A DNA stretch of 64,000 nucleotides from Candidatus Gracilibacteria bacterium CG17_big_fil_post_rev_8_21_14_2_50_48_13. GTDB lineage: Bacteria; Patescibacteriota; Gracilibacteria; 1-14-2-50-48-13. The translations under genes and the position numbers were made by a program. The stretch's first letter is position 1; the number at the start of each line of letters is the position of its first letter. The DNA lies in NCBI GenBank assembly GCA_002783265.1, contig PFFG01000004.1:35598-99597 (forward strand), in the 5' to 3' direction. The notes beneath the pieces were generated by a model, which was given only the letters and a program-made list of their open reading frames with translations, was not told the origin of the DNA and made no database searches. Below are positions 8,547-60,722 of the stretch, piece after piece.

Positions 8547-9155
8547 CTACCGGTCGACGATCTGTTCTAAAATGTCTCTCTCCGCAACCTCCACAAAGAG
8601 GAGCATGGTGGCTTCGTTTCTTGTGTTTTCTGAGAGAGGCAGTGTCAGTGCTTTTCGCAGCATACTACTACTCCAATAGTGATGACGAATCATGTAGGAG
8701 AGGAAGTTTTTGTGCAGCTGGTCCATGGGAATGCCTTCCGTTTCCATAGGAAGAGGTATGGTTCCAGGCAGGGGCACGCTCTCTCCCTGTGCTTCGCGTG
8801 CTTTTCGCAGGCCAAGGAGGACGCGCAAATAGCGTCGCATCATACTGTCTGCAAGGCCTTGAATTTCAGGATCTTCGGACACACTTCGCATGTATTTTGT
8901 CAGCACAAACGCTTTGTTGTAATGTTCATAGAGCAAACGGGTAAAATGCTCCTCTGTATCCACGGTGCCTTGCAGTGTTCCGGAACCCGTATGTGATAAG
9001 TACAGCATTTCCGTCGGGTGCATTGCGGGAAACGGAAATCCCGATCCAGTGGAAACAGGTGGTGGGGGAACACGCTGAATTGCAGCAGCAAAAAAGTAGA
9101 CCCCCGCAAGGAGGCCCACTGTGAGGGCGAGCAAAAATTGTACTGGTGCCCGCAT
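8547..9155 (-). CDS. membrane-anchored protein with divergent DUF305-like repeats
   Basis: This 202-residue protein starts with one hydrophobic segment (about 5-26, FLLALTVGLLAGVYFFAAA), so it is anchored or exported. The rest looks like two diverged DUF305 helical units. One has FTRLLYEHYNKAFVL followed by EDPEIQGLADSMMRRYL. The other has FLSYMIRHHYWSSSMLRKAL. These resemble the F..xM..HH..A and DPE.R.LA patterns in the clear DUF305 protein at 32333-32947. DUF305 proteins are exported four-helix proteins, some linked to copper. Only the second unit keeps a His pair. The gene follows the cytochrome b5-like lipoprotein gene by 6 nt and was probably transcribed with it. The family call is tentative. 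Confidence 0.55.
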   Translation of the reverse strand: MRAPVQFLLALTVGLLAGVYFFAAAIQRVPPPPVSTGSGFPFPAMHPTEMLYLSHTGSGTLQGTVDTEEHFTRLLYEHYNKAFVLTKYMRSVSEDPEIQGLADSMMRRYLRVLLGLRKAREAQGESVPLPGTIPLPMETEGIPMDQLHKNFLSYMIRHHYWSSSMLRKALTLPLSENTRNEATMLLFVEVAERDILEQIVDR

Positions 9156-9161
9156 GGGGAA

Positions 9162-9542
9162 CTACTGGGAAAGAGCTCCGAGACGGTAACGCGCAAGACG
9201 CTTTACCTGGATCGCCATGGGAACACCTCCTGGGTGCTCCCAAGAAGTGATATCCTTACCACAAGCACCCATGATTGCCTCAGACCCACCAGGATGGCGA
9301 TTCACCCAATCCGTGAGATCGTAAACCATGCCGTCGACGCTTGCCCAGCAATCGGAAGCCTGGTTGTGGGCTGCTATATCCGCTGCGGTAAAAGTAGACT
9401 GTCCTTTCATGGCTGAACCAGAAGTTGTGCTGCCAGAGCCGGTTTGAACAGGTGTTCCAGTTGCTGAGTTTGGTGTGCCCATAAGGCTGCAGCTTGCAAG
9501 AAGAAGGGATGATGTGAGAACGATGGGAAGGAGGTGCTTCAT
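9162..9542 (-). CDS. cytochrome b5-like heme-binding lipoprotein
   Basis: I start this 126-residue protein at the ATG at 9542, which gives a clean lipoprotein signal peptide with lipobox LLASC. Upstream in-frame codons lack a signal. A Ser/Thr/Gly linker follows, then a cytochrome b5-type domain (about 50-126) with FTAADIAAHN, CWASVDGMVYDLTDWV and the heme-ligand motif HPGG. A second His occurs 20 residues later (SWEHPGG), a shorter spacing than in animal b5, so heme coordination should be tested. It would act outside the membrane as a one-electron carrier. Partners are unknown; the DUF305-like gene follows directly. Confidence 0.82.
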   Translation of the reverse strand: MKHLLPIVLTSSLLLASCSLMGTPNSATGTPVQTGSGSTTSGSAMKGQSTFTAADIAAHNQASDCWASVDGMVYDLTDWVNRHPGGSEAIMGACGKDITSWEHPGGVPMAIQVKRLARYRLGALSQ

Positions 9543-9612
9543 AAACCAAAATGAAAAAATTGACGGCATCACCCTACAGGAATATGGAATTTTCGCAAGA
9601 AAAGGCGGTGTC

Positions 9613-9621
9613 TGGTATACT
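9613..9621 (+). promoter_or_regulatory. extended -10 promoter of the guanine deaminase-like gene
   Basis: TGGTATACT is a complete extended -10 element (TG-N-TATACT). Transcription would start near 9628, about 16 nt before the ATG at 9644. This supports that start over an upstream in-frame ATG at 9551. Confidence 0.5.
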
Positions 9622-9643
9622 GGAAAAAAGCTTATCCACATCT

Positions 9644-14432: not shown

Positions 14433-15503
14433 TTATTGAAGTTGGCTCAGATCAGGGAGGCGGTCGAAACGACGTCCGTCGAATAAGACCGTGGGTATTT
14501 TTTTGGTACGCACCTGCTCTTCGACGATGGCGCGCTGCGCAGAAATGGTTTTCGACACCTCTTCACTGCTACGAAGAAAGTCTATACGACGAATTTCCTC
14601 TTCTGTAAAGCCAGTGTCCTGCAGAACTTTCCGTAGGGCAGACTCTGCTTGTGCTGGGGTCATGGCTGTGTTGAGCAGGTTTTGCAGGCTGTCCGCCTCG
14701 TCTTTTTCCGTTTCGAAAATACGATCGAGGACCTCCCAGTCTCGTGCACGCGTGGACTGCTGCTCTTTGTCGAGGAGTTTGACCGCCTCAAGCAAGCGCA
14801 CCACGTCGCCAGAGAAGGGAAACTTTGTCCCAATACCACCGTCAGGTATGGCATAGGCGATGTACGTCAGATTGTAGCGGGTCGCAAAGTCCGTTTCCTT
14901 GATGCGGCCGGTGAGTTTGCGGCAAACAACGCATCCCGGGTCAATAATTTCCAGTGCTGTCGGTTTTGTGGGGTTATAGGTATTTCTGTACGTTGCTGTA
15001 GGGGAAAGGTAGTCTTCTGCCTGCCAGGTTTTGAGGCGGTCGGGTATGCGTGAGACGGTGTCTGCAAAAGTCGTGAAAGGTCGCATGGACCAGGAAAGGA
15101 GTTCGCCCTTCGCAGCGGCCTCAAGGAAACCCGGAGCAGTGGAACCAATGGAACATGCTTCACCGCCCAGCGAACAGGACTCTGACTGGTTTGGGTCGCA
15201 CGTGTCGTATATCCAGAGATTGAGGCCTATGACCATGACACTGAGCAGACTCCAGAGGGAAAGGAGCACAAAGATCCAGGCAAGAAGATCTGCCCAGCGG
15301 AGAAAATAGGCGGCTAGTCGTGGTGAGCGTTTCATGAGCGACCCTGCAACCATGCCCCGAACATCGTCACGAAAAGTGGAGTCACAGGGGCGAAAGGTGA
15401 CGCGGTGCAGTACACAGTTCCATGCGTCCACAGCGAGTCTTCTGTAGCGAAGTGAAAAAATCCCGAGCAGGAGAAAAACGAGAAAAGCGGCAATACAAAA
15501 CAT
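14433..15503 (-). CDS. membrane protein with periplasm-facing DsbA/thioredoxin-like domain
   Basis: This 356-residue protein has a hydrophobic N-terminus (about 1-18), a second membrane segment at about 66-95 (LLAWIFVLLSLWSLLSVMVI) and a C-terminal soluble thioredoxin-fold region. The redox motif is CVVC (in DPGCVVCRKL, about 192-195). A typical end, IPTVLFDGRRF, contains the likely cis-Pro. Helical residues between them fit a DsbA-type insertion. The extra cysteines at about 101-116 could form a disulfide. It would act as a thiol oxidoreductase on exported proteins; no partner gene such as vkor is seen nearby. It lies 3 nt downstream of the cysteine desulfurase-like gene and is likely co-transcribed with it. 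Confidence 0.7.
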   Translation of the reverse strand: MFCIAAFLVFLLLGIFSLRYRRLAVDAWNCVLHRVTFRPCDSTFRDDVRGMVAGSLMKRSPRLAAYFLRWADLLAWIFVLLSLWSLLSVMVIGLNLWIYDTCDPNQSESCSLGGEACSIGSTAPGFLEAAAKGELLSWSMRPFTTFADTVSRIPDRLKTWQAEDYLSPTATYRNTYNPTKPTALEIIDPGCVVCRKLTGRIKETDFATRYNLTYIAYAIPDGGIGTKFPFSGDVVRLLEAVKLLDKEQQSTRARDWEVLDRIFETEKDEADSLQNLLNTAMTPAQAESALRKVLQDTGFTEEEIRRIDFLRSSEEVSKTISAQRAIVEEQVRTKKIPTVLFDGRRFDRLPDLSQLQ

Positions 15504-31808: not shown

Positions 31809-32336
31809 ATGATCAATATTTCCTACCTGAGTACGAATCCAACGGAAAAGATGTTAAGTAATTTGACGCATGCTCCCTTTGAAATGGATGGACACAGGTT
31901 TGCTTCTGTGGAAGGATTCTGGCAAGGTATAAAGCGAGCATATGGGGACACGGAGCGTGATCAAATTTTTCAATTGTTTGGTATTCCTGCGAAACGAGCG
32001 GGTCGCTTAGAGGAACCACCAGAATTTGCTTGGTATCAGAATCAAGCCTTTCCCATGGGGAGTCAATGTCACCAACTACTTTTGAAACGTGCGGTTGCCC
32101 ATAAGCTTCGGGATAATCCGGATATAGGGCTCTTGCTTCTTGCCACAAAGGATGACGTTATCCTTCATGACCCAAAGAAATCCAATGGTGAATCCTTTCC
32201 CAATAGTGCTCTTATTCCCAACGAAGTTTTTGCCTCCTTTGTCACAGAACTCCGATCAGAATTTCGTCAGCGCTATGTTCCAAGTTTAGTCCCCATACAA
32301 ACGTACCTTAAAAATATCTCAACGCATTCCTTATGA
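31809..32336 (+). CDS. NADAR-domain (YbiA-like) protein
   Basis: This 175-residue protein has LSNLTHAPFEMDGHRFASVE near its start, WQGIKRAYGD, KRAGRLEEPPEF and a C-terminal FPNSALIPNEVFASFVTEL. These resemble the NADAR/DUF1768 domain. Known members cleave N-glycosidic bonds of riboflavin-pathway intermediates or remove ADP-ribose from guanine; others sit in phage and defence contexts. The usual NADAR core is well covered but diverged, so activity is not certain. Its TGA stop overlaps the ATG of the DUF305 gene (ATGA at 32333-32336), implying translational coupling. Confidence 0.65.
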   Translation: MINISYLSTNPTEKMLSNLTHAPFEMDGHRFASVEGFWQGIKRAYGDTERDQIFQLFGIPAKRAGRLEEPPEFAWYQNQAFPMGSQCHQLLLKRAVAHKLRDNPDIGLLLLATKDDVILHDPKKSNGESFPNSALIPNEVFASFVTELRSEFRQRYVPSLVPIQTYLKNISTHSL

Positions 32337-32947
32337 AAACTCTTCTTCCATTATTGTGCGCGTCAGTGTTGCTCGCAAGCTGCGGGGGTGCACCTGCAAC
32401 GACAGGTACATCGAGTGTACTTGGTGACACACTGAGCATGCCGAGCACCGGCGAAACGATGTCCGGCATTTCCATGACCGGTTTTGTGCTTTCCGAGCAC
32501 GATGATCATTCCATGATGATTCATTCTGATCAGGAATTTTTAGTAGAAATGGTCGCCCATCATCAGGAAGCGGTGGATGCGTCCAAAAAGCTTCTGTCCA
32601 TGGGGCCAACGAAACCCCAGGTCCGTTCGCTCCTTTCCAACATTATCACCAACCAGGACGAAGAAATTCGTTCCATGGGGAAAATGTATGCCCAGTGGTA
32701 TGGAGAGCCTCTTCCGGTATCCACCACCTATGCACCAATGATGCGCTCCCTCGCCTACGTTTCACCACGCGATGCAGAACGACAGTTTGTTGAAGATATG
32801 GTGAAACACCATGAACATGCCATTGTTATGGCGCAAATGATTTACAGCATCACAGATCGACCAGAACTCCGCACACTCGCGGAGAATATTGTGCGCGATC
32901 AAAGCAAAGAAATTACTATGATGCGAGACTGGCTTTCTGCCTGGTAA
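32333..32947 (+). CDS. DUF305 family lipoprotein
   Basis: This 204-residue lipoprotein has lipobox LLASC at about 13-17. A linker rich in Ser, Thr and Gly and a HDDHS patch follow, then two DUF305 units. Unit one reads EFLVEMVAHHQEAVDASKKL with KPQVRSLLSNIITNQDEEI. Unit two reads FVEDMVKHHEHAIVMAQMI with RPELRTLAENIVRDQSKEI. Each has the family's M..HH..A pattern. These exported helical proteins are found with copper and stress genes, and the His pairs suggest metal binding. It is coupled to the NADAR gene by the ATGA overlap. It converges on the hydrolase gene with only 16 nt between. Confidence 0.88.
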   Translation: MKTLLPLLCASVLLASCGGAPATTGTSSVLGDTLSMPSTGETMSGISMTGFVLSEHDDHSMMIHSDQEFLVEMVAHHQEAVDASKKLLSMGPTKPQVRSLLSNIITNQDEEIRSMGKMYAQWYGEPLPVSTTYAPMMRSLAYVSPRDAERQFVEDMVKHHEHAIVMAQMIYSITDRPELRTLAENIVRDQSKEITMMRDWLSAW

Positions 32948-49855: not shown

Positions 49856-50545
49856 TCATCGATGTGTAACACTCTGAAGTCCCAAACCTTGCAAAGCAGT
49901 TACGCGTGTTTTGAGATCGTGCTCCGTACATGCGGGTTCCTTTTCCATAGAGGTTTCCAGTGTACACTCAGGTCGAAAAGCCTGGAGATTCCACTTTGGT
50001 GCTTTCCTGAGAAATGTGGCCATGGTTTGCATGGTCTTCTCGTTGTGATGAGAGGCAATAACCGTGGTGCGGATTTCGTAAGGCACACGGCTTTGCAGTA
50101 GTATCTGGAGCGAGGTGTGAATTTGTTTCTCAAAGCGTCCTGCTTTACAGAGCTCTTCCAGTCTTCTACCAGTCGTTTTGAAGTCCATAGCTACGTACTG
50201 CACGAGGGGGAGTACTTTTTTCAGAATTTCCGGGTTTGAGCCATTGGTGTCCAGTTTGACTTTGAAGCCCATGGTTCGAATCTGCCCAATAGCATCGATG
50301 AGACCTGGCTGTAGGGTTGGTTCACCCCCGCACAGTACCACGCCTTCAAGCATACCTTGCCGACGCTCCAAAAAGTTGAGGACCGTTTCCCAGGGAATCA
50401 GCTGCACATCATGCCCTCTTGGATCGACCATTTCAGGGTTGTGGCAGTAGGTACAGCGAAAGTTGCACCCCTGCGTGAAGAGGATGCAACTTGGCGTGTC
50501 AGGGAAATCGAGCAGTGTGCACGGGGTAATGGCAGCAATATTCAT
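49856..50545 (-). CDS. nrdG: anaerobic RNR-activating radical SAM enzyme
   Basis: This 229-residue protein has the radical SAM motif CNFRCTYC (Cys27, Cys31, Cys34) and VVLCGGEPTLQPGL for SAM binding. Its opening, ITPCTLLDFPDTPSCILFTQGC, is typical of NrdG. NrdG reductively cleaves SAM to make the 5'-deoxyadenosyl radical that generates the glycyl radical on NrdD. Here the glycine is on a separate protein (50790-51020). The length is longer than E. coli NrdG (154) and resembles the PflA-like branch. It overlaps the redoxin gene by 4 nt (ATGA-type) at the end of the nrd unit. Confidence 0.9.
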   Translation of the reverse strand: MNIAAITPCTLLDFPDTPSCILFTQGCNFRCTYCHNPEMVDPRGHDVQLIPWETVLNFLERRQGMLEGVVLCGGEPTLQPGLIDAIGQIRTMGFKVKLDTNGSNPEILKKVLPLVQYVAMDFKTTGRRLEELCKAGRFEKQIHTSLQILLQSRVPYEIRTTVIASHHNEKTMQTMATFLRKAPKWNLQAFRPECTLETSMEKEPACTEHDLKTRVTALQGLGLQSVTHR

Positions 50546-50802
50546 GCAGGCAAATGTTCAGAGATATACCGCTCAGCCACGCCAATGTCATCCGTGCGAA
50601 AGATTTCTTTCCCCTCACGAAGGAAAAGCAATAAGGGCGCTGCGGTTATATCAAAGGTTTGTGCCGTTTCAAAAAAGTTTGCTGCAGTGTTATCCAGTAT
50701 TTCTCCCTGGATGTTGAGCAGATGCTCCGCAACCCATGCCTTCATGGCAGGGCACTTTGGACAGGTAGTAGTGGTGAAGAGCAGGTAGGTTATTTCAGAC
50801 AT
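50542..50802 (-). CDS. NrdH-like redoxin (thioredoxin/glutaredoxin fold)
   Basis: This 86-residue single-domain redoxin has CPKC at 14-17, just after the first strand (ITYLLFTTTT), and cis-Pro in ITAAPLLLFLREGKE. Size and motif fit NrdH or small thioredoxin-like electron donors. Some class III RNRs use a redoxin of this kind instead of formate. Its place between the glycyl-radical gene (13-nt overlap) and nrdG (4-nt overlap) makes it the probable reductant of this RNR. No thioredoxin reductase is in the window. Confidence 0.85.
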   Translation of the reverse strand: MSEITYLLFTTTTCPKCPAMKAWVAEHLLNIQGEILDNTAANFFETAQTFDITAAPLLLFLREGKEIFRTDDIGVAERYISEHLPA

Positions 50803-51033: not shown

Positions 51034-52881
51034 TTAGGAAAGAAGAGATGAAGCTTTAGTTGCGGAGGTGTGTAACTGACGAACAGAGGTGTCCTTATGT
51101 CGATCTTGCTCTGAGAGGCCAATTTCATCGTCGCAGCGCGGACAGTAATCGTGTTCTCCTGGTAAGTGCCCATGTTTCGGACAAATGCAAAAGGTGGGAG
51201 ATATGGTCAGGTAGGGTAAACGAAAGGAGGCTAAGGCGTTATGAACCAGTTTTTTGCAGGCTTCTGCACTGGAAACGGATTCCCCTAAATACAGATGCAG
51301 CACCGTGCCGCCTGTGTAGAGTGTCTGAAAACGGTCTTGCAGTTCTAGGGCTTCAAAAGGATCATCCGTGTACTCCACAGGGAGTTGGGAAGAGTTGGTG
51401 TAGTAGGGATATTCCTCTGTTCCCGCTTGAATGATGCCAGGGAAGCGCTTTTGATCTTCACGGGCAAAGCGATGACACGCACCTTCGGCGGGGCTTGCCT
51501 CCAGATTGTACATATTGCCTGTTTCTTCCTGGAACAGGACGAGTTGCGCGCGCATGTAGAGCAATATTTCTTCAGCAAGATCGCCACCTTCCTTTGTGGT
51601 GATGTCGTACGCACCATCGCTAAAGTTCAAAATTGCCTCGTTGATGCCATTGATCCCAATGGTAGAGAAATGGTTGTTGAGATGCCCGAGATACCGCTTG
51701 GTGAAAGGGTAGAGACCGTTCTCCAGCCAGTGCGTAATGGCTGCACGTTTGAGTTCCAGCGACGTTTGTGCAAGCAGCATAAGCTCGCCGAGTCGCGCAA
51801 GCAAAGCTTCCTTGTCACCTTTGTGCACATAGCCAAGACGTGCGCCATTGATAGTCACGACGCCAATACTTCCTGTCATTTCTGCAGAGCCGAAGAGACC
51901 ATTTCCTCGCTTGAGAAGCTCCGTCAGGTCGAGCTGCAATCGGCAGCACATAGAGCGAACGTGGTGCGGTTTGAGGTCTGAATTCAGGAAATTCTGAAAG
52001 TAGGGAAGCCCATATTTTGCCGTCATTTCAAAGAGCGGCGTCGTATTGGGGTGATCCCACGGGAAATCTGTGGTGATATTGTAGGTCGGGATAGGAAAGG
52101 TAAAGACGCGGCCCTTTGCGTCGCCGTGCATCATCACGTCAATGTACGCTTTGTTGATCATATCCATTTCCTGCTGCAACTCGCCAAAGGTGTACGCAAA
52201 GTATTCACCGCCCAGCTTAAGACGCTTTTCAAAGAGGTCCACGGGGCATGTCCAGTCGAGGGTGATATTGGTGAAGGGTGTTTGCGTTCCCCAACGTGAA
52301 GGAACATTGAGATTGAAGACAAAGGCCTGAATACATTGGCGCACATAATGATACGTTTTTTCCTCAATCCACTGCTGTTTTGCCTCCTCTGAAGAAAAGT
52401 TCATACCAAATTCGTCTGTTTCCTTCGCGAGGGAAAGGGCATATTTTTTGACGAAGGGTGCAAGGTACGTGTCAAAGGAAGAAAAGGCCTGCGCTCCTGC
52501 CCATTCGTTTTGCAAGGTACCAAGGAAATTGACCATTTGACCGACAGCCGCACTCAGATTTTTTGGTGGATCACATTCTATTTTGTTGGGAACTCCATTA
52601 AACCCTTCTTCGAGGAGCTGGCGGAGTGACCAACCCGCACAGTACCCTGAGAGAAAATCAAGATCGTGGATGTACAGGTCACCCTGACGGTGCACCTCAC
52701 CTACTTCGAGGGGGTATACACAAGAGAGCCAGTAATTCGCAGTGATTTTTCCTGAATTGTTGAGAATCATTCCACCGAGGGAGTATCCAATATTCGAGTT
52801 GGCATTCACGCGCCAGTCTTGTTGATAGAGGTACTCCTCGAGGGTTCTTTTGTAGTCAATGTCGTGCATATGTGGGGGCAT
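51034..52881 (-). CDS. nrdD: class III ribonucleotide reductase, catalytic chain lacking the glycyl domain
   Basis: This 615-residue protein follows NrdD from the start of the barrel. NANSNIGYSLGGMILN (26-41), SGYCAGWSLRQLLEEG (Cys81), NVPSRWGTQTPFTNITLDW, RSMCCRLQLD (Cys312/313) and NLEASPAEGACHRFA fit the family. Near the end is the zinc site, CICPKHGHL and YCPRC (565-583). Normally EVYSRVxGYxRPV follows a few residues later. Here a 30-residue polar tail ends the chain, and that motif is encoded by the next gene, 13 nt away. The N-terminal ATP-cone is absent. Met5 (52869) is an alternative start. The gene follows nirK by 26 nt. Confidence 0.92.
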   Translation of the reverse strand: MPPHMHDIDYKRTLEEYLYQQDWRVNANSNIGYSLGGMILNNSGKITANYWLSCVYPLEVGEVHRQGDLYIHDLDFLSGYCAGWSLRQLLEEGFNGVPNKIECDPPKNLSAAVGQMVNFLGTLQNEWAGAQAFSSFDTYLAPFVKKYALSLAKETDEFGMNFSSEEAKQQWIEEKTYHYVRQCIQAFVFNLNVPSRWGTQTPFTNITLDWTCPVDLFEKRLKLGGEYFAYTFGELQQEMDMINKAYIDVMMHGDAKGRVFTFPIPTYNITTDFPWDHPNTTPLFEMTAKYGLPYFQNFLNSDLKPHHVRSMCCRLQLDLTELLKRGNGLFGSAEMTGSIGVVTINGARLGYVHKGDKEALLARLGELMLLAQTSLELKRAAITHWLENGLYPFTKRYLGHLNNHFSTIGINGINEAILNFSDGAYDITTKEGGDLAEEILLYMRAQLVLFQEETGNMYNLEASPAEGACHRFAREDQKRFPGIIQAGTEEYPYYTNSSQLPVEYTDDPFEALELQDRFQTLYTGGTVLHLYLGESVSSAEACKKLVHNALASFRLPYLTISPTFCICPKHGHLPGEHDYCPRCDDEIGLSEQDRHKDTSVRQLHTSATKASSLLS

Positions 52882-52907: not shown

Positions 52908-54002
52908 TTAATGACCTGCATGTTGATGGTCGTCGACGCCGTCAAAGGTGGTGGTTTGTGGGGTACCACTTGCTTCAATGGTTGCCCAGGCGCCTCGGTC
53001 GACACGTGCAAGGGCATGATCCACGAGAATATATTTGCCTGGCACATCAATGGTAAAGTCGACGATAGTGGCACCACCTGCGGGAACAATGGTTGTCTGC
53101 ACATTCTGCAAACGTGCGGAATTTTCACCTATCGCGCCTTCCGGATACACTGTGTCCATAACTTCACCAATAATATGGAAGGAAGACACCATATTCACAC
53201 CACCGTTACCCACGTAGAGGCGAATGCGCTCACCGGTTTTCACCTGCATTTTATTCACCGCACCCATGGTTTGCCCATTGAAGACAACATATTCAGGGGT
53301 TCCCATCAGCATTTTCTTGCCATCAAAGTGCTGCATGCCTTTTTCGCCGATGGTGCCAGTGGTATACAGCTCGCCCTGCATGACGTAAAACTCTTTATCT
53401 ACTGGGGGAAGGGGCTTTTGTGGTTCTACAAAAATGAGCCCGTACATACCATTTGTCATGTGCATGGCTGCGTTGCCGTGTGCACAGTGATAGACGTAGA
53501 TTCCTGGGTTTTTCGCAAGAAAGGTGAGTTTTTTTGACTCACCTGGGGCGACGTTGGTGACGGTCGCACCTCCACCTGGGCCAGACACAGCATGCAAATC
53601 GATATTGTGGTGGTATTGGCTTGTCGCATCGTTGGTGAGGGTCAGCTCCACCGTGTCACCCTCACGAACTCGAAGAAATGGACCAGGGACTGTGCCGTTG
53701 AAGGTCCAATAGGTATAGAGAATTCCTTCTGCAATAGGTGCAATGACTTCCTTTGCAAGCAGGTGAATTTCCACAGGAGAAGGGGAGGTGCGCGCAATAG
53801 GCGCTGGTATTTCACTGGGGTTTTTGGCAATGTCCGCTTGCGCTGTGAGATGCGTTGTTGATTGATCTGCAAGAACAGGGCCATCTGCCGGACCAAAGGT
53901 CATTGGAGAGCTCGTAGGCTTCGTGAAAAGAAAAAACCACAAGAGGAACGACAAAATGAGCAGCCCAATCATGAAAAGAAGGCGCTGGAGAACAGTGAGC
54001 AT
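52908..54002 (-). CDS. nirK: copper nitrite reductase, AniA-type NirK, membrane-anchored
   Basis: This 364-residue protein has an N-terminal membrane anchor (about 4-26), a Ser/Thr/Pro linker and two cupredoxin domains. It resembles Neisseria AniA. HHNIDLHAVSG supplies type-1 His132, catalytic Asp135 and type-2 His137. YVYHCAHGNAAMHMTNGMYG supplies His172, Cys173, His181 and Met186. VSSFHIIGE supplies catalytic His276, and ILVDHALARV supplies His329. All copper ligands and both catalytic residues are present, so nitrite reduction to NO outside the cell is likely. The C-terminus is His-rich (DDHQHAGH). It lies 9 nt after the arsR-family gene and 26 nt before nrdD. Confidence 0.93.
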   Translation of the reverse strand: MLTVLQRLLFMIGLLILSFLLWFFLFTKPTSSPMTFGPADGPVLADQSTTHLTAQADIAKNPSEIPAPIARTSPSPVEIHLLAKEVIAPIAEGILYTYWTFNGTVPGPFLRVREGDTVELTLTNDATSQYHHNIDLHAVSGPGGGATVTNVAPGESKKLTFLAKNPGIYVYHCAHGNAAMHMTNGMYGLIFVEPQKPLPPVDKEFYVMQGELYTTGTIGEKGMQHFDGKKMLMGTPEYVVFNGQTMGAVNKMQVKTGERIRLYVGNGGVNMVSSFHIIGEVMDTVYPEGAIGENSARLQNVQTTIVPAGGATIVDFTIDVPGKYILVDHALARVDRGAWATIEASGTPQTTTFDGVDDHQHAGH

Positions 54003-54011
54003 TGGGGGGAG

Positions 54012-54329
54012 TTATGAAGAAATTGCTGCGAAGGAGTTGAGCGTGCGCAGTTCATGCAGTACGCGGCATGGCTCAATGATGCGCGCGTCCATAATGGAGT
54101 AGAAGGCGCGAAGACCATCTCGTCGTACATGCACAAGACCAGCATTGCGGAGGATACTCAGATGCTGCGATAAATTGGCTTTTGAAACCGCCACAAGTCG
54201 CAACAGATCTTCCACACTCACTTCCTCGTGCTTCATAATATTCAAGATTTCCAGACGCGTTGGATGCGCAAGAACCTTGTATACTTCAGCATTTGCTCGG
54301 TACGTCGTTTTGGGGAAAGGCGATACCAT
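54012..54329 (-). CDS. ArsR-family winged-helix repressor
   Basis: This 105-residue protein has the ArsR/SmtB fold. EVYKVLAHPTRLEILNIM opens it, DLLRLVAVSKANLSQHLSIL is the recognition helix region, and GLVHVRRDGLRAFYSI is the wing. The usual alpha3 Cys pair (ELCVCDL) is absent (here VEDLLRLVAV), so it is not a classical arsenic or zinc/cadmium site. A lone Cys in EPCRVLHEL near the C-terminus could take part in another sensing mechanism such as redox or NO. It is the first gene of the possible arsR-nirK-nrd unit and has a promoter overlapped by an inverted repeat. Confidence 0.9.
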   Translation of the reverse strand: MVSPFPKTTYRANAEVYKVLAHPTRLEILNIMKHEEVSVEDLLRLVAVSKANLSQHLSILRNAGLVHVRRDGLRAFYSIMDARIIEPCRVLHELRTLNSFAAISS

Positions 54330-54339
54330 GGGGGAAAAG

Positions 54340-54361
54340 TAGTTTAGAAACTTCGAAACTA
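54340..54361. promoter_or_regulatory. inverted repeat, candidate ArsR operator
   Basis: TAGTTT-N10-AAACTA surrounds a second, overlapping AGTTT/AAACT dyad. It touches the downstream edge of the -10 element (54366-54361) and covers the predicted start point. Binding there would block transcription of arsR and the genes after it. It sits 11 nt upstream of the arsR ATG. Confidence 0.55.
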
Positions 54362-56803: not shown

Positions 56804-59020
56804 CTAGTTCATGGTCCAGCGTCGAAGCCGCAATGCATTAAGCACAACGCTTATGGAGGAGAAGGCCATGGCAATCGCTGACAGGGCAGGATTAAGTAGT
56901 CCTAATGCTGCAATGGGAATGCCGATGACATTGTATAAAAACGCCCAAAAGAGATTCTGCTGAATGTTCCGCAGGGTTGCTTTGGACAGTTCGATCGCTT
57001 CTACTGCCTTGAAGAGATCACCTTGCACGAGAACAATGTCACCTGTTTCCACAGCAATATCTGTGCCTGTTCCCATGGCGATGCCCACCTGCGCCGTTGC
57101 CAGCGCCGGTGCGTCATTTATGCCATCACCAACCATGGCAACGTATTCACCTTCAGCCTGCAGTTGTTTGATGAGTGCTAGCTTTCCATCGGGTGTGATG
57201 ACTGCATGGACTGTGGGAATCCCGACATTTGCAGCTATGGTTTGTGCAACATCGGGGTTGTCGCCCGTCATCATAATGGTTTTTATGCCACGGGCATGCA
57301 GTGCTTTAATGGCATGGTGGGCATTGTGTTTTTCCGTGTCTTGCAGGGCGAGAAATCCTTGGTATGTGGTATTAACTGCAGCGTGAAGAATGGTCTTTCC
57401 TTCCTTTGCAAAACGCTTCGCATCTTTGAGCGTGTTTTGGTCGATGGAGATGTTTTTTTCCTGGAGAAGATCCGCGCTCCCAACCACGACCGACTGTGTC
57501 CCTACTGTACCCGCTATTCCTCGCCCAGGGAGAGCTGTTGCCTTCGAGGCCGCAAGGAAGGATACATTCTTTTCGAGAGCATACCGTACAACGGCTTGTG
57601 CAAGTGGATGTTCCGACTGTCTCTCGAGGGAGGCGACGAGCTGGAGCATGTCGTTTTCAGCTCCCCACAACTCCATGTCTGTGACGCGCGGTTTCCCCTC
57701 TGTAATTGTTCCTGTTTTATCAAAACAAATGGCGGTAATTTTATGCATTTTTTCTAGGGTTTCGGCATTTTTTAGCAGGATACCCATTTGCGCACCCTTG
57801 CCTGTTCCCACGACAATCGAAATAGGGGTTGCGAGCCCAAGGGCACAGGGGCAGGCGATAATGAGTACGGCAACGGTGGTGATGAGTGCCATGGAAAAAT
57901 CACCCGTAGTTGTGTACCAGGCTCCAAACGTCACGAGCGCAATAAGGACAACTCCCCAAACAAAATAATTGGAGATGAGGTCGACGAGCTTTTGAATGGG
58001 AGCGCGGCTCATCTGGGCTTTTTCCACCATGCGTGCCATTTGCGCAAGCACGGTCTCTTTACCCACGTGCTCTGCGCGCATGGTGAAGGCAGTTGTTGTG
58101 TTGAGGGTAGCTCCGATGACCTTGCTACCCACCGTTTTTTCGACGGGTAGACTTTCTCCTGTGATCATGGATTCATCGATACTTGCGCTGCCGTCCGTTA
58201 TCATGCCATCTACGGGGATTTTTTCACCCGGCTTGACGAGGAGAAGGTCAGAGACCTGAAGTGTGTGCGTGGGGACGTCCTGAATATCGCCGCTTACGAC
58301 TTTATGTGCGACTTTTGCGCCCATGTGGAGAAGTTTGCGCACAGCAGAACTTGCCTCCCCCTTCGATCGTGCTTCCAAGTAACGGCCAAACATGATGAAG
58401 GTGGAAATGAGCGCCGCGTCCATAAAGTAGGTTGCGTGCGACTCCATGGTCCCTGCGTGTGCAAAAAAGACATTGTATGTGGAGTATAAAAAGGCACTGC
58501 TCACACCAAGCGCGACGAGGGTATCCATGTTGGGGCGCCCGCGGAGAAAAAAAGCGGGGATACCTTTAAGAAAAAACTCGCGCGCCGTGTACGCTAGAAG
58601 ACAAAGTGTCAGAAGGAAAGAAAGAACGCCTTCGTAGGGAAGCACAAGAACGAAGTCGAAGGCGATTAAAATGATGCTGATGGTCAGACCAAAAAGCGCT
58701 TTGAACAACTTTTTTTGCACGTCCTTCTCAGACTCTGCCTGCGCGTGGGCAGCGTGGTCTTCATGATGCATGTGTTCATGGGGCATAGACTCTGTGCTCC
58801 CAGGCTCACGGAGTATCGTTGCCGTATAGCCAGACTTTTTGATAAAGTCGACGATGGACTCTGAGGAAATTTTCTGTTCGTCAAACATAACTTCTGCCTT
58901 GTTCGTGGCAAAATTCACCACAATATGGTGAACGCCAGGGAGTTTGCCCACATCGCGCTGGATGTTATTGACGCAGGAGGCGCAGTCCATGTCAGCTATG
59001 CTGAGTTGTATGGTGGTCAT
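56804..59020 (-). CDS. copA: copper-exporting P1B-type ATPase
   Basis: This 738-residue ATPase begins with one heavy-metal-associated domain whose site is MDCASC (Cys13, Cys16). A His-rich stretch ([17 protein letters not shown], about 80-96) follows, then the membrane domain. The ion site CPC is in [29 protein letters not shown], the SEHPLAQAV motif and GDGINDAPA mark the actuator, phosphorylation, nucleotide-binding and hinge regions. The final spans have the N and MxxSS-type residues of Cu+ pumps. It exports Cu+ from the cytosol. The multicopper oxidase gene lies 19 nt upstream, pointing to joint copper detoxification. Confidence 0.95.
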
Positions 59021-59039: not shown

Positions 59040-60638
59040 TTATTTTTTTGCTTGTACAGTGTACTCAAACATCATACCACTATGGAGATGTTCTGCGATG
59101 TGACAATGGGCCATCCATGTGCCAGGATTACTCATCTCGACAAGAAGATCGACGGTGTCTCCGGAGGGAACAAGGGTGGTGTCTTTCCATACCAAGTTGG
59201 TATTTTCAACCCCATTGGTCGATAAAACAACGAAGCGTTGACCATGGAAGTGAATAGGATGCTGCATCGGATGCGCCCCTCGAGGATCGTTGTAGAGACG
59301 AATTTTCACGAGGTCTCCTTGTTGAAACGTCCATGCGATGTCCATGTTTGCCTTCCCCGTTTGGGCGTCGATAATTTTCCACACGGTGTTTTCACTAGTC
59401 ATCATGCGGTTCATACCTGGCATGGTGTCCTCCCATTCAATTTTATCGCCGTCCGTACCCATCATCATTTGGTGATTCATGCCGCCCATGCCCATATCAA
59501 GGTCAAGTCGGAGTTCCTTGTCCGGTGATTTGCTCACAAGTGCATGCAAAGGGGCCATCTCTTGCGTTACATCGGATTGTACATGAAGTGTTTCAAATTC
59601 CTTTTGTTGCACCGCATCTGTTGAACCAGCAGAAACGGTTACGTCGCCTAGTTTGTACTGGCTGATGGGCGTCGAATGAAGAAGGGTGTACGAGCCTGCC
59701 TTTGGAAAGAATACATCAACAATGTACCGCTCTGTTGGTGCGATGGTGAGCTCGTCGACAAAAGTTTCCCGTTCGTAAAGCCCCCCGTCACTTCCCACGA
59801 GTTTTATTTTGGCACCGGGAAGGGTCAGTCGAAAGGTGCGTGTATTCGCGCTATTGGTGATATACAATCTTTTGATCTCGCCTTCTTGAGCGCTCAATGT
59901 ATAGTCAGTCTTCCAGTTGACCATCATGGTCTCGCCGAACCTACCCATGAGTGCGTAGTTTGTGAAGGCTTGAAAGAAAGGAGTTAGACCATTTGCATCA
60001 AGGGAAATATCATCGATAAACAGATATTCTTCCGCAGATTTTTTTGCAGGTTTTGCCGAGGAACGTGGCTCGACACGGATATTGGCATAAAGACCAGACT
60101 CCTGCTGGAAGTCATCGCGAACATGGGGGTGATACCAGAAAAGTCCTGCGTCGGGGAAACGGAGTTTGTAGGAAAAGTCTTCACCTGGTTTGATGGTTTT
60201 TTGTGTCACGTCTGCGACGCCATCGAACGCATTATCAACACGTACACCATGAGGATGGAGGGTGGTTTCTATATCACTGGCGTTGTGCAAAAGAATAGTC
60301 ACCTCATCGCCTTGTTGGACTCGTAAACGTGGACCCGGAAGCATGCCATTGTAGGCGAGGAGTCGGATTTCCTTCCCGTTGATAGTTTTCTTTACTGCGC
60401 TCACAGTCATGGCGTAGGTGTCGCCGTTCTTTAAGACGACTTCCTCGCTGGGTTTTGCTTCAGGAAGGTTGTCCGTCGATCTCGAAAAATATACAGACTC
60501 ACCCTGTGTGGTGGGGGTAGCAGTTTCGGTGCGAGGACTTGGAAATTGCATGTGCATGGGGTATTGCACAAAATTGAAAACAGCCCAACCGAAAAGGAAT
60601 AGGGGCAAAATGAAAAAAAGAGGAAAAAATTTATGCAT
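59040..60638 (-). CDS. multicopper oxidase (CueO/CotA-like)
   Basis: From the ATG at 60638 (MHKFFPLFFILPLFLFGWAV, a signal or anchor) the protein is 532 residues. All copper sites are visible: TTLHPHGVR and GLFWYHPHVRDDFQQ in domain 1, HPIHFHGQRF in domain 3, and the T1/T3 motif MAHCHIAEHLHSGMM at the end. A Met-rich stretch, MGMGGMNHQMMMG (about 400-415), resembles the CueO Met-rich insert that binds Cu+. It probably oxidises Cu+ outside the membrane, using O2. A longer frame from 60716 has no signal. It sits between the His-rich exported protein and copA. Confidence 0.92.
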   Translation of the reverse strand: MHKFFPLFFILPLFLFGWAVFNFVQYPMHMQFPSPRTETATPTTQGESVYFSRSTDNLPEAKPSEEVVLKNGDTYAMTVSAVKKTINGKEIRLLAYNGMLPGPRLRVQQGDEVTILLHNASDIETTLHPHGVRVDNAFDGVADVTQKTIKPGEDFSYKLRFPDAGLFWYHPHVRDDFQQESGLYANIRVEPRSSAKPAKKSAEEYLFIDDISLDANGLTPFFQAFTNYALMGRFGETMMVNWKTDYTLSAQEGEIKRLYITNSANTRTFRLTLPGAKIKLVGSDGGLYERETFVDELTIAPTERYIVDVFFPKAGSYTLLHSTPISQYKLGDVTVSAGSTDAVQQKEFETLHVQSDVTQEMAPLHALVSKSPDKELRLDLDMGMGGMNHQMMMGTDGDKIEWEDTMPGMNRMMTSENTVWKIIDAQTGKANMDIAWTFQQGDLVKIRLYNDPRGAHPMQHPIHFHGQRFVVLSTNGVENTNLVWKDTTLVPSGDTVDLLVEMSNPGTWMAHCHIAEHLHSGMMFEYTVQAKK

Positions 60639-60722
60639 AAAGAAAGAATTACAGGAGGAAGAATGTGCAAACACAATATTTTGATAGCGAAGCATCAAGA
60701 CATTGCTGAAAAACACTTGTTC

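Follow-up and report, generated by a model that had tools for sequence, protein, structure and literature searches.

We identify the minus-strand gene at 52,908–54,002 of the window (the whole 64,000-nt stretch of DNA analysed) as one that codes for a complete two-domain AniA-type (class II) copper nitrite reductase, NirK, an assignment confirmed by sequence comparison and structural modelling. The protein is a further member of the Patescibacteria NirK clade known since 2017. In the reading that we favour and consider likely, it would be an extracytoplasmic, membrane-anchored enzyme that reduces nitrite to NO with copper supplied by CopA, acting as an electron sink under anoxia and releasing the NO formed. 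NirK in CPR bacteria was described in 2017 (Danczak, PMC5581439) and by 2025 the MAGs carrying it numbered more than 140 (PMC12931201).

The 364-aa protein comprises an N-terminal transmembrane helix (residues 2–26), two cupredoxin domains and a His-rich C-terminus. Its N-terminus is well bounded, because the frame extends no more than 3 codons upstream of the ATG start codon (367 aa), which also rules out a missed upstream start adding a second transmembrane helix. It scored 308 bits against the copper nitrite reductase model TIGR02376 (curated cut-off 296.3, E 8e-92) and matched 185 distinct PDB sequences, the best being 2zoo and the next ones other AniA-type enzymes. Identity to the AniA-type structures (AniA of Neisseria gonorrhoeae, Pseudoalteromonas 2zoo and the core domains of the Ralstonia and Bradyrhizobium enzymes) was 45–48%, with the same ligands. 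Alignment located the type-1 copper ligands H132, C173, H181 and M186, the type-2 ligands H137, H172 and H329, and the catalytic positions D135 and H276 together with I278; all ten positions were intact, in a pattern common to 76 other rows. The predicted structure (pLDDT 91) consists of helix 2–26 followed by two beta domains and has the same fold as AniA and 6the (TM-scores of 0.91–0.98), with a TM-score of 0.98 and an rmsd of 1.0 over 301 columns against 6the, the Bradyrhizobium core domain, and of 0.94 against AniA 5ue6. Class I enzymes fitted the model less well (28–31% identity), and their outgroup rows formed a long separate branch in the tree. The sequence-only reading had proposed a complete AniA-type enzyme with all copper ligands and an Asp135/His276 pair, and had suggested structure prediction as a check; each of these claims held, the two residues being correct in the protein's own numbering, and the model agrees with solved nitrite reductases. 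The enzyme is presumably a homotrimer, whose type-2 sites would each be shared by neighbouring subunits, and it probably works, converting nitrite to NO.

The same reading had seen a membrane helix in place of a lipobox. The window NirK indeed has no lipobox Cys, which rules out anchoring as a lipoprotein, and helix 2–26 takes its place. As a special feature, however, this anchor does not stand, since a transmembrane N-terminus without a lipobox is the rule in CPR NirK. None of the 23 clade relatives with complete N-termini carries a lipobox, and the anchor of the window protein is therefore ordinary for the group. At least two transmembrane segments were predicted in 22 of the 23, most having two helices, whereas the window NirK has one. 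AniA, for its part, is held in the outer membrane as a lipoprotein and receives electrons from periplasmic donors; the window protein differs from it in its transmembrane anchor and in having no recognised donor.

Phylogenetic analysis placed the window NirK within a set of 31 rows (support 98/94), nearly all of them from CPR genomes, the exceptions being two Gammaproteobacteria, one Chloroflexota and one Woesearchaeota. This tree was built without the laccase-like rows, which a quicker tree had drawn into the CPR clade by long branches. The set is the Patescibacteria NirK clade of the two published studies (PMC5581439, PMC12931201), whose members share, besides their sequence relationship, intact copper and catalytic sites and a transmembrane anchor without a lipobox. 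The nearest NirKs found in a contig search came from Zambryskibacteria (58%) and Doudnabacteria (61%), and also from Yonathbacteria and Kaiserbacteria. The description of the genome as CPR-like is likewise confirmed, the NirKs of two genomes of the same phylum (G573 and G483) being identical to Yonathbacteria and Doudnabacteria NirKs. Over the TIGR02376 cut-off, NirK was present in 7 out of 353 genomes of the same class and in 8 out of 380 sampled from the phylum; no other member of the host's family was among the comparison genomes. NirKs fused to CopA, described below, form their own branch of five rows including G674 (support 100/99). Constraining them together with the window NirK was rejected (AU p 0.003), as was constraining the window NirK together with L035 and L036 (AU p 1e-5), and thus NirK was probably gained more than once in the class.

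The 2017 study calls the type-1 ligands conserved in CPR NirK (PMC5581439). In our alignment the type-1 axial Met is replaced by Gln in sixteen CPR rows of one branch (support 100/99; L035, L036, L068, L074, L076, L077, L082, L084, L086, L088, L090, L091 and L149–L152) and separately in L075, so that the tree calls for two changes. In copper proteins, type-1 sites that have Gln as a ligand are lower in potential, which may hold for these NirKs too; the window NirK retains the Met.

On the minus strand the gene stands second in a row of five. It is preceded, at a distance of 9 bp, by a gene for an ArsR/SmtB-family regulator (54,012–54,329; NF033788, 81.7 bits against a cut-off of 55; PF01022), the probable operon leader, and followed after 26 bp by nrdD, for the anaerobic (class III) ribonucleotide reductase (51,034–52,881; PRK08270, 950 bits; TIGR02487 over cut-off). 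Then come a gene for a small thioredoxin/glutaredoxin-like protein with a CPKC motif (50,542–50,802), recognised by reading its sequence and matching no family, and one for NrdG2, the radical-SAM activase of NrdD (49,856–50,545; TIGR02495, 191 bits, over cut-off). This arrangement is probably an operon. A −10-like hexamer and the start of the ArsR gene flank a 22-bp imperfect palindrome (54,340–54,361), a possible operator but a weak one, because 4.5% of shuffled sequences scored equally well. A class I ribonucleotide reductase is encoded elsewhere in the host genome, so NrdD is the anoxic enzyme, and NirK, being co-directional with it, is likely used without oxygen. Neither this row nor the copper genes nearby had been mentioned in the sequence-only reading.

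The probable operon with a class III ribonucleotide reductase sets the window gene apart from the rest of its clade. Some ribonucleotide reductase adjoins NirK at 5 of about 31 CPR loci examined, the window included: L084 and L086 have class I NrdB-NrdA and, running divergently from it, ArsR and NirK as a pair, L076 has NrdB-NrdA ahead of NirK and a divergent ArsR, and L069 has a partial ArsR-NirK-ribonucleotide reductase row. The window ArsR gave no alignment with that of L084, which rules out one ArsR common to the CPR loci, so the link is a likeness of context and not of regulator. As to translation in the window, Shine-Dalgarno-like motifs stood upstream of 3 out of 35 gene starts, G was underrepresented from about −10 to −18, and 60% of the starts had C at −3; initiation in the host genome may proceed without a Shine-Dalgarno leader.

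Upstream of nirK, at 2.8 kb, lies a second minus-strand unit, made up of copper-related genes. It consists of a gene for a three-domain multicopper oxidase (59,040–60,716; PF07732, PF00394 and PF07731; 158 bits against the CueO model, below its cut-off) and, 19 bp downstream, one for a CopA-like Cu+ P1B-type ATPase (56,804–59,020; TIGR01511, 572 bits, over cut-off) with the HMA CxxC, CPC, DKTGT and MxxSS motifs. The window ATPase and NirK are separate genes, whereas a Cu+ ATPase and NirK share a single frame (L034:7146-10463, L039:6580-10053, L040:3168-7100 and L041:1124-4948) in four genera, all from one family of the same class (genomes G150, G199, G222 and G157). The ATPase part of these frames reached 628–632 bits against TIGR01511 (cut-off 397), and the NirK part was over the TIGR02376 cut-off in three, that of L041 being interrupted by an assembly gap. 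Each contains the HMA CxxC, CPC, DKTGT and MxxSS motifs and, after them, one additional transmembrane helix that would place NirK outside the membrane. Their neighbours encode small HMA proteins, HMA-DsbD_2-cupredoxin proteins, DUF305 proteins and a multicopper oxidase, and unfused NirK occurs near CopA in L036, L067 and L070. A second kind of fusion joins DsbB, NirK and a plastocyanin-like cupredoxin in one frame in one genus (G214, L037:8913-10973), and in Doudnabacteria NirK, DsbB and DsbA follow each other as separate genes (L064:8274-10733). The NirK domains of both kinds of fusion are 46–54% identical to the window protein, belong to NirK clades separate from its own and carry an added transmembrane helix predicted to place them outside; neither kind occurs in the window. 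More than one NirK clade, each separate from the other, shows a tie to copper export. A literature search conducted largely outside the subscription journals found no published report of either kind of fusion; copA has been linked to nitrite/NO stress in Neisseria (PMC9280163).

Three further observations concern these families. The HMA-DsbD_2-cupredoxin proteins beside NirK or CopA (L039:4980-6323, L040:8693-10048 and L036:10802-12212, the last one split) are membrane proteins that possibly carry copper or electrons across the membrane. DUF305 proteins, found beside CopA and NirK in relatives, are also encoded in the window at 8,547–9,155 (a weak match) and 32,333–32,947 (a clear one). Finally, what is left of a DsbB-NirK-cupredoxin gene at L042:1974-2678 (G209) is a C-terminal piece in which no DsbB could be detected, so that the gene has apparently decayed.

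The source of electrons had been put as a question by the sequence-only reading, which called for a whole-genome check for NO reductase, azurin and cytochrome c, and the search bears the question out. Family searches of the host genome (1.28 Mb in 11 contigs) found no heme-copper oxidase/NorB family member, no cytochrome c of PF13442, no cupredoxin other than NirK, no complex-I/Mrp pump subunit and no UbiA. These absences refer to the named families in this one 97%-complete assembly, and control genomes gave positive matches. Both CPR studies propose a cupredoxin donor (PMC5581439, PMC12931201), but the host genome has no cupredoxin beyond NirK, and the cupredoxin route is therefore unfit for it as assembled. 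DsbB and a DsbA-like lipoprotein are encoded on the same contig, 47–52 kb from NirK, and a protein search of that contig found no CcdA/DsbD-type carrier. The cytochrome b5-like lipoprotein (9,162–9,641; PF00173) that had been named as a candidate donor is possible but unsupported, a domain match being its sole evidence and its gene lying 43 kb from NirK. The window also encodes, at 14,433–15,503, a membrane protein that matches no Pfam family and contains a thioredoxin-like stretch with CVVC.

Could NirK have another main task? It might act in copper tolerance together with CopA and the multicopper oxidase, turning CopA-exported Cu(I) into less toxic Cu(II) with nitrite merely as the oxidant, an anoxic counterpart of CueO. 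The ATPase and oxidase genes 2.8 kb away, the CopA-NirK frames of four genera with their copper-related neighbours, the loci where unfused NirK lies near CopA and the lack of an ordinary electron donor in our family searches all speak for such a role, which we nevertheless think unlikely, for the window NirK belongs to a tight co-directional row that includes nrdD and none of the copper genes, and any copper-needing enzyme may adjoin a copper pump. A narrower version, in which copper export in this class would run through a machine with NirK as its outer half, CopA handing over Cu(I) and NirK oxidising it with nitrite, strikes us as a long shot. If true, such a machine would do, without oxygen and driven by nitrite, what the cuprous oxidase CueO does, with the CopA-NirK fusion as its dedicated form and the window NirK with CopA and the multicopper oxidase as the unfused one. 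We would give equally small credence to NirK as a sink for the electrons that DsbA and DsbB draw from periplasmic disulfide formation. The DsbB-NirK-cupredoxin protein of G214, the NirK-DsbB-DsbA row of Doudnabacteria and a host genome with DsbB and a DsbA-like lipoprotein, in which we found neither UbiA nor an oxidase of the family searched, point that way, while DsbB lies 47 kb from NirK in the host genome and was undetected in 6 of the 10 genomes searched, no direct route from DsbB to copper is known, and the multicopper oxidase could fill this role with O2.

That the gene is a recently acquired and little-used one seems to us very improbable. The host genome is alone in its family in the comparison set, NirK of the class falls into several clades (the AU tests against single clades gave p 0.003 and 1e-5), and a decayed remnant exists in G209; against this, the frame is complete, all catalytic positions are intact and the operon context is tight. 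Least credible by far is a two-domain, laccase-like multicopper oxidase or another enzyme that does not act on nitrite. Such proteins share the fold family, and two-domain ones occur in the same class, but they have the ligand pattern HHHHCHLHHH in place of the HDHHCHMHIH of NirK. In them D98 and I257 are replaced by His and the axial ligand is Leu, and the His replacements are absent from the window protein, which is over the TIGR02376 cut-off and was placed among the NirKs. Placement among non-reducing two-domain multicopper oxidases had been raised as a possible refutation; ligand pattern and clade together rule out the two-domain laccase reading.

The reading that we prefer thus remains that of an anchored nitrite reductase. 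NirK would sit outside the cytoplasm, held by its one N-terminal helix, and would be made under anoxia together with NrdD and NrdG. Its copper would be delivered by the Cu+ ATPase, because relatives fuse ATPase and NirK; since the window ATPase is transcribed in a unit of its own and the CopA-fused NirKs belong to another clade, supply by CopA is proposed by analogy. Against the reading speak the small share of CPR loci at which a ribonucleotide reductase adjoins NirK (5 of about 31) and the failure of the window ArsR to align with that of other loci; moreover, with neither a recognised donor nor NO removal, nirK could be poorly used. NirK would be a sink for electrons and would not pump protons, with the NO leaving the cell, and the electrons might come by a thiol/DsbB-type route, from Cu(I) itself, from the cytochrome b5 lipoprotein or from a partner cell.

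How electrons reach NirK in symbiotic Patescibacteria without respiratory chains was asked in 2017 and again in 2025. The host genome sharpens this question, the proposed cupredoxin being missing from it along with cytochrome c, NO reductase and a UbiA-type enzyme. The link to the anaerobic ribonucleotide reductase suggests when NirK is used, and the fusions of NirK with a copper pump and with DsbB in relatives turn the question of its donor into one about concrete proteins open to expression and assay.
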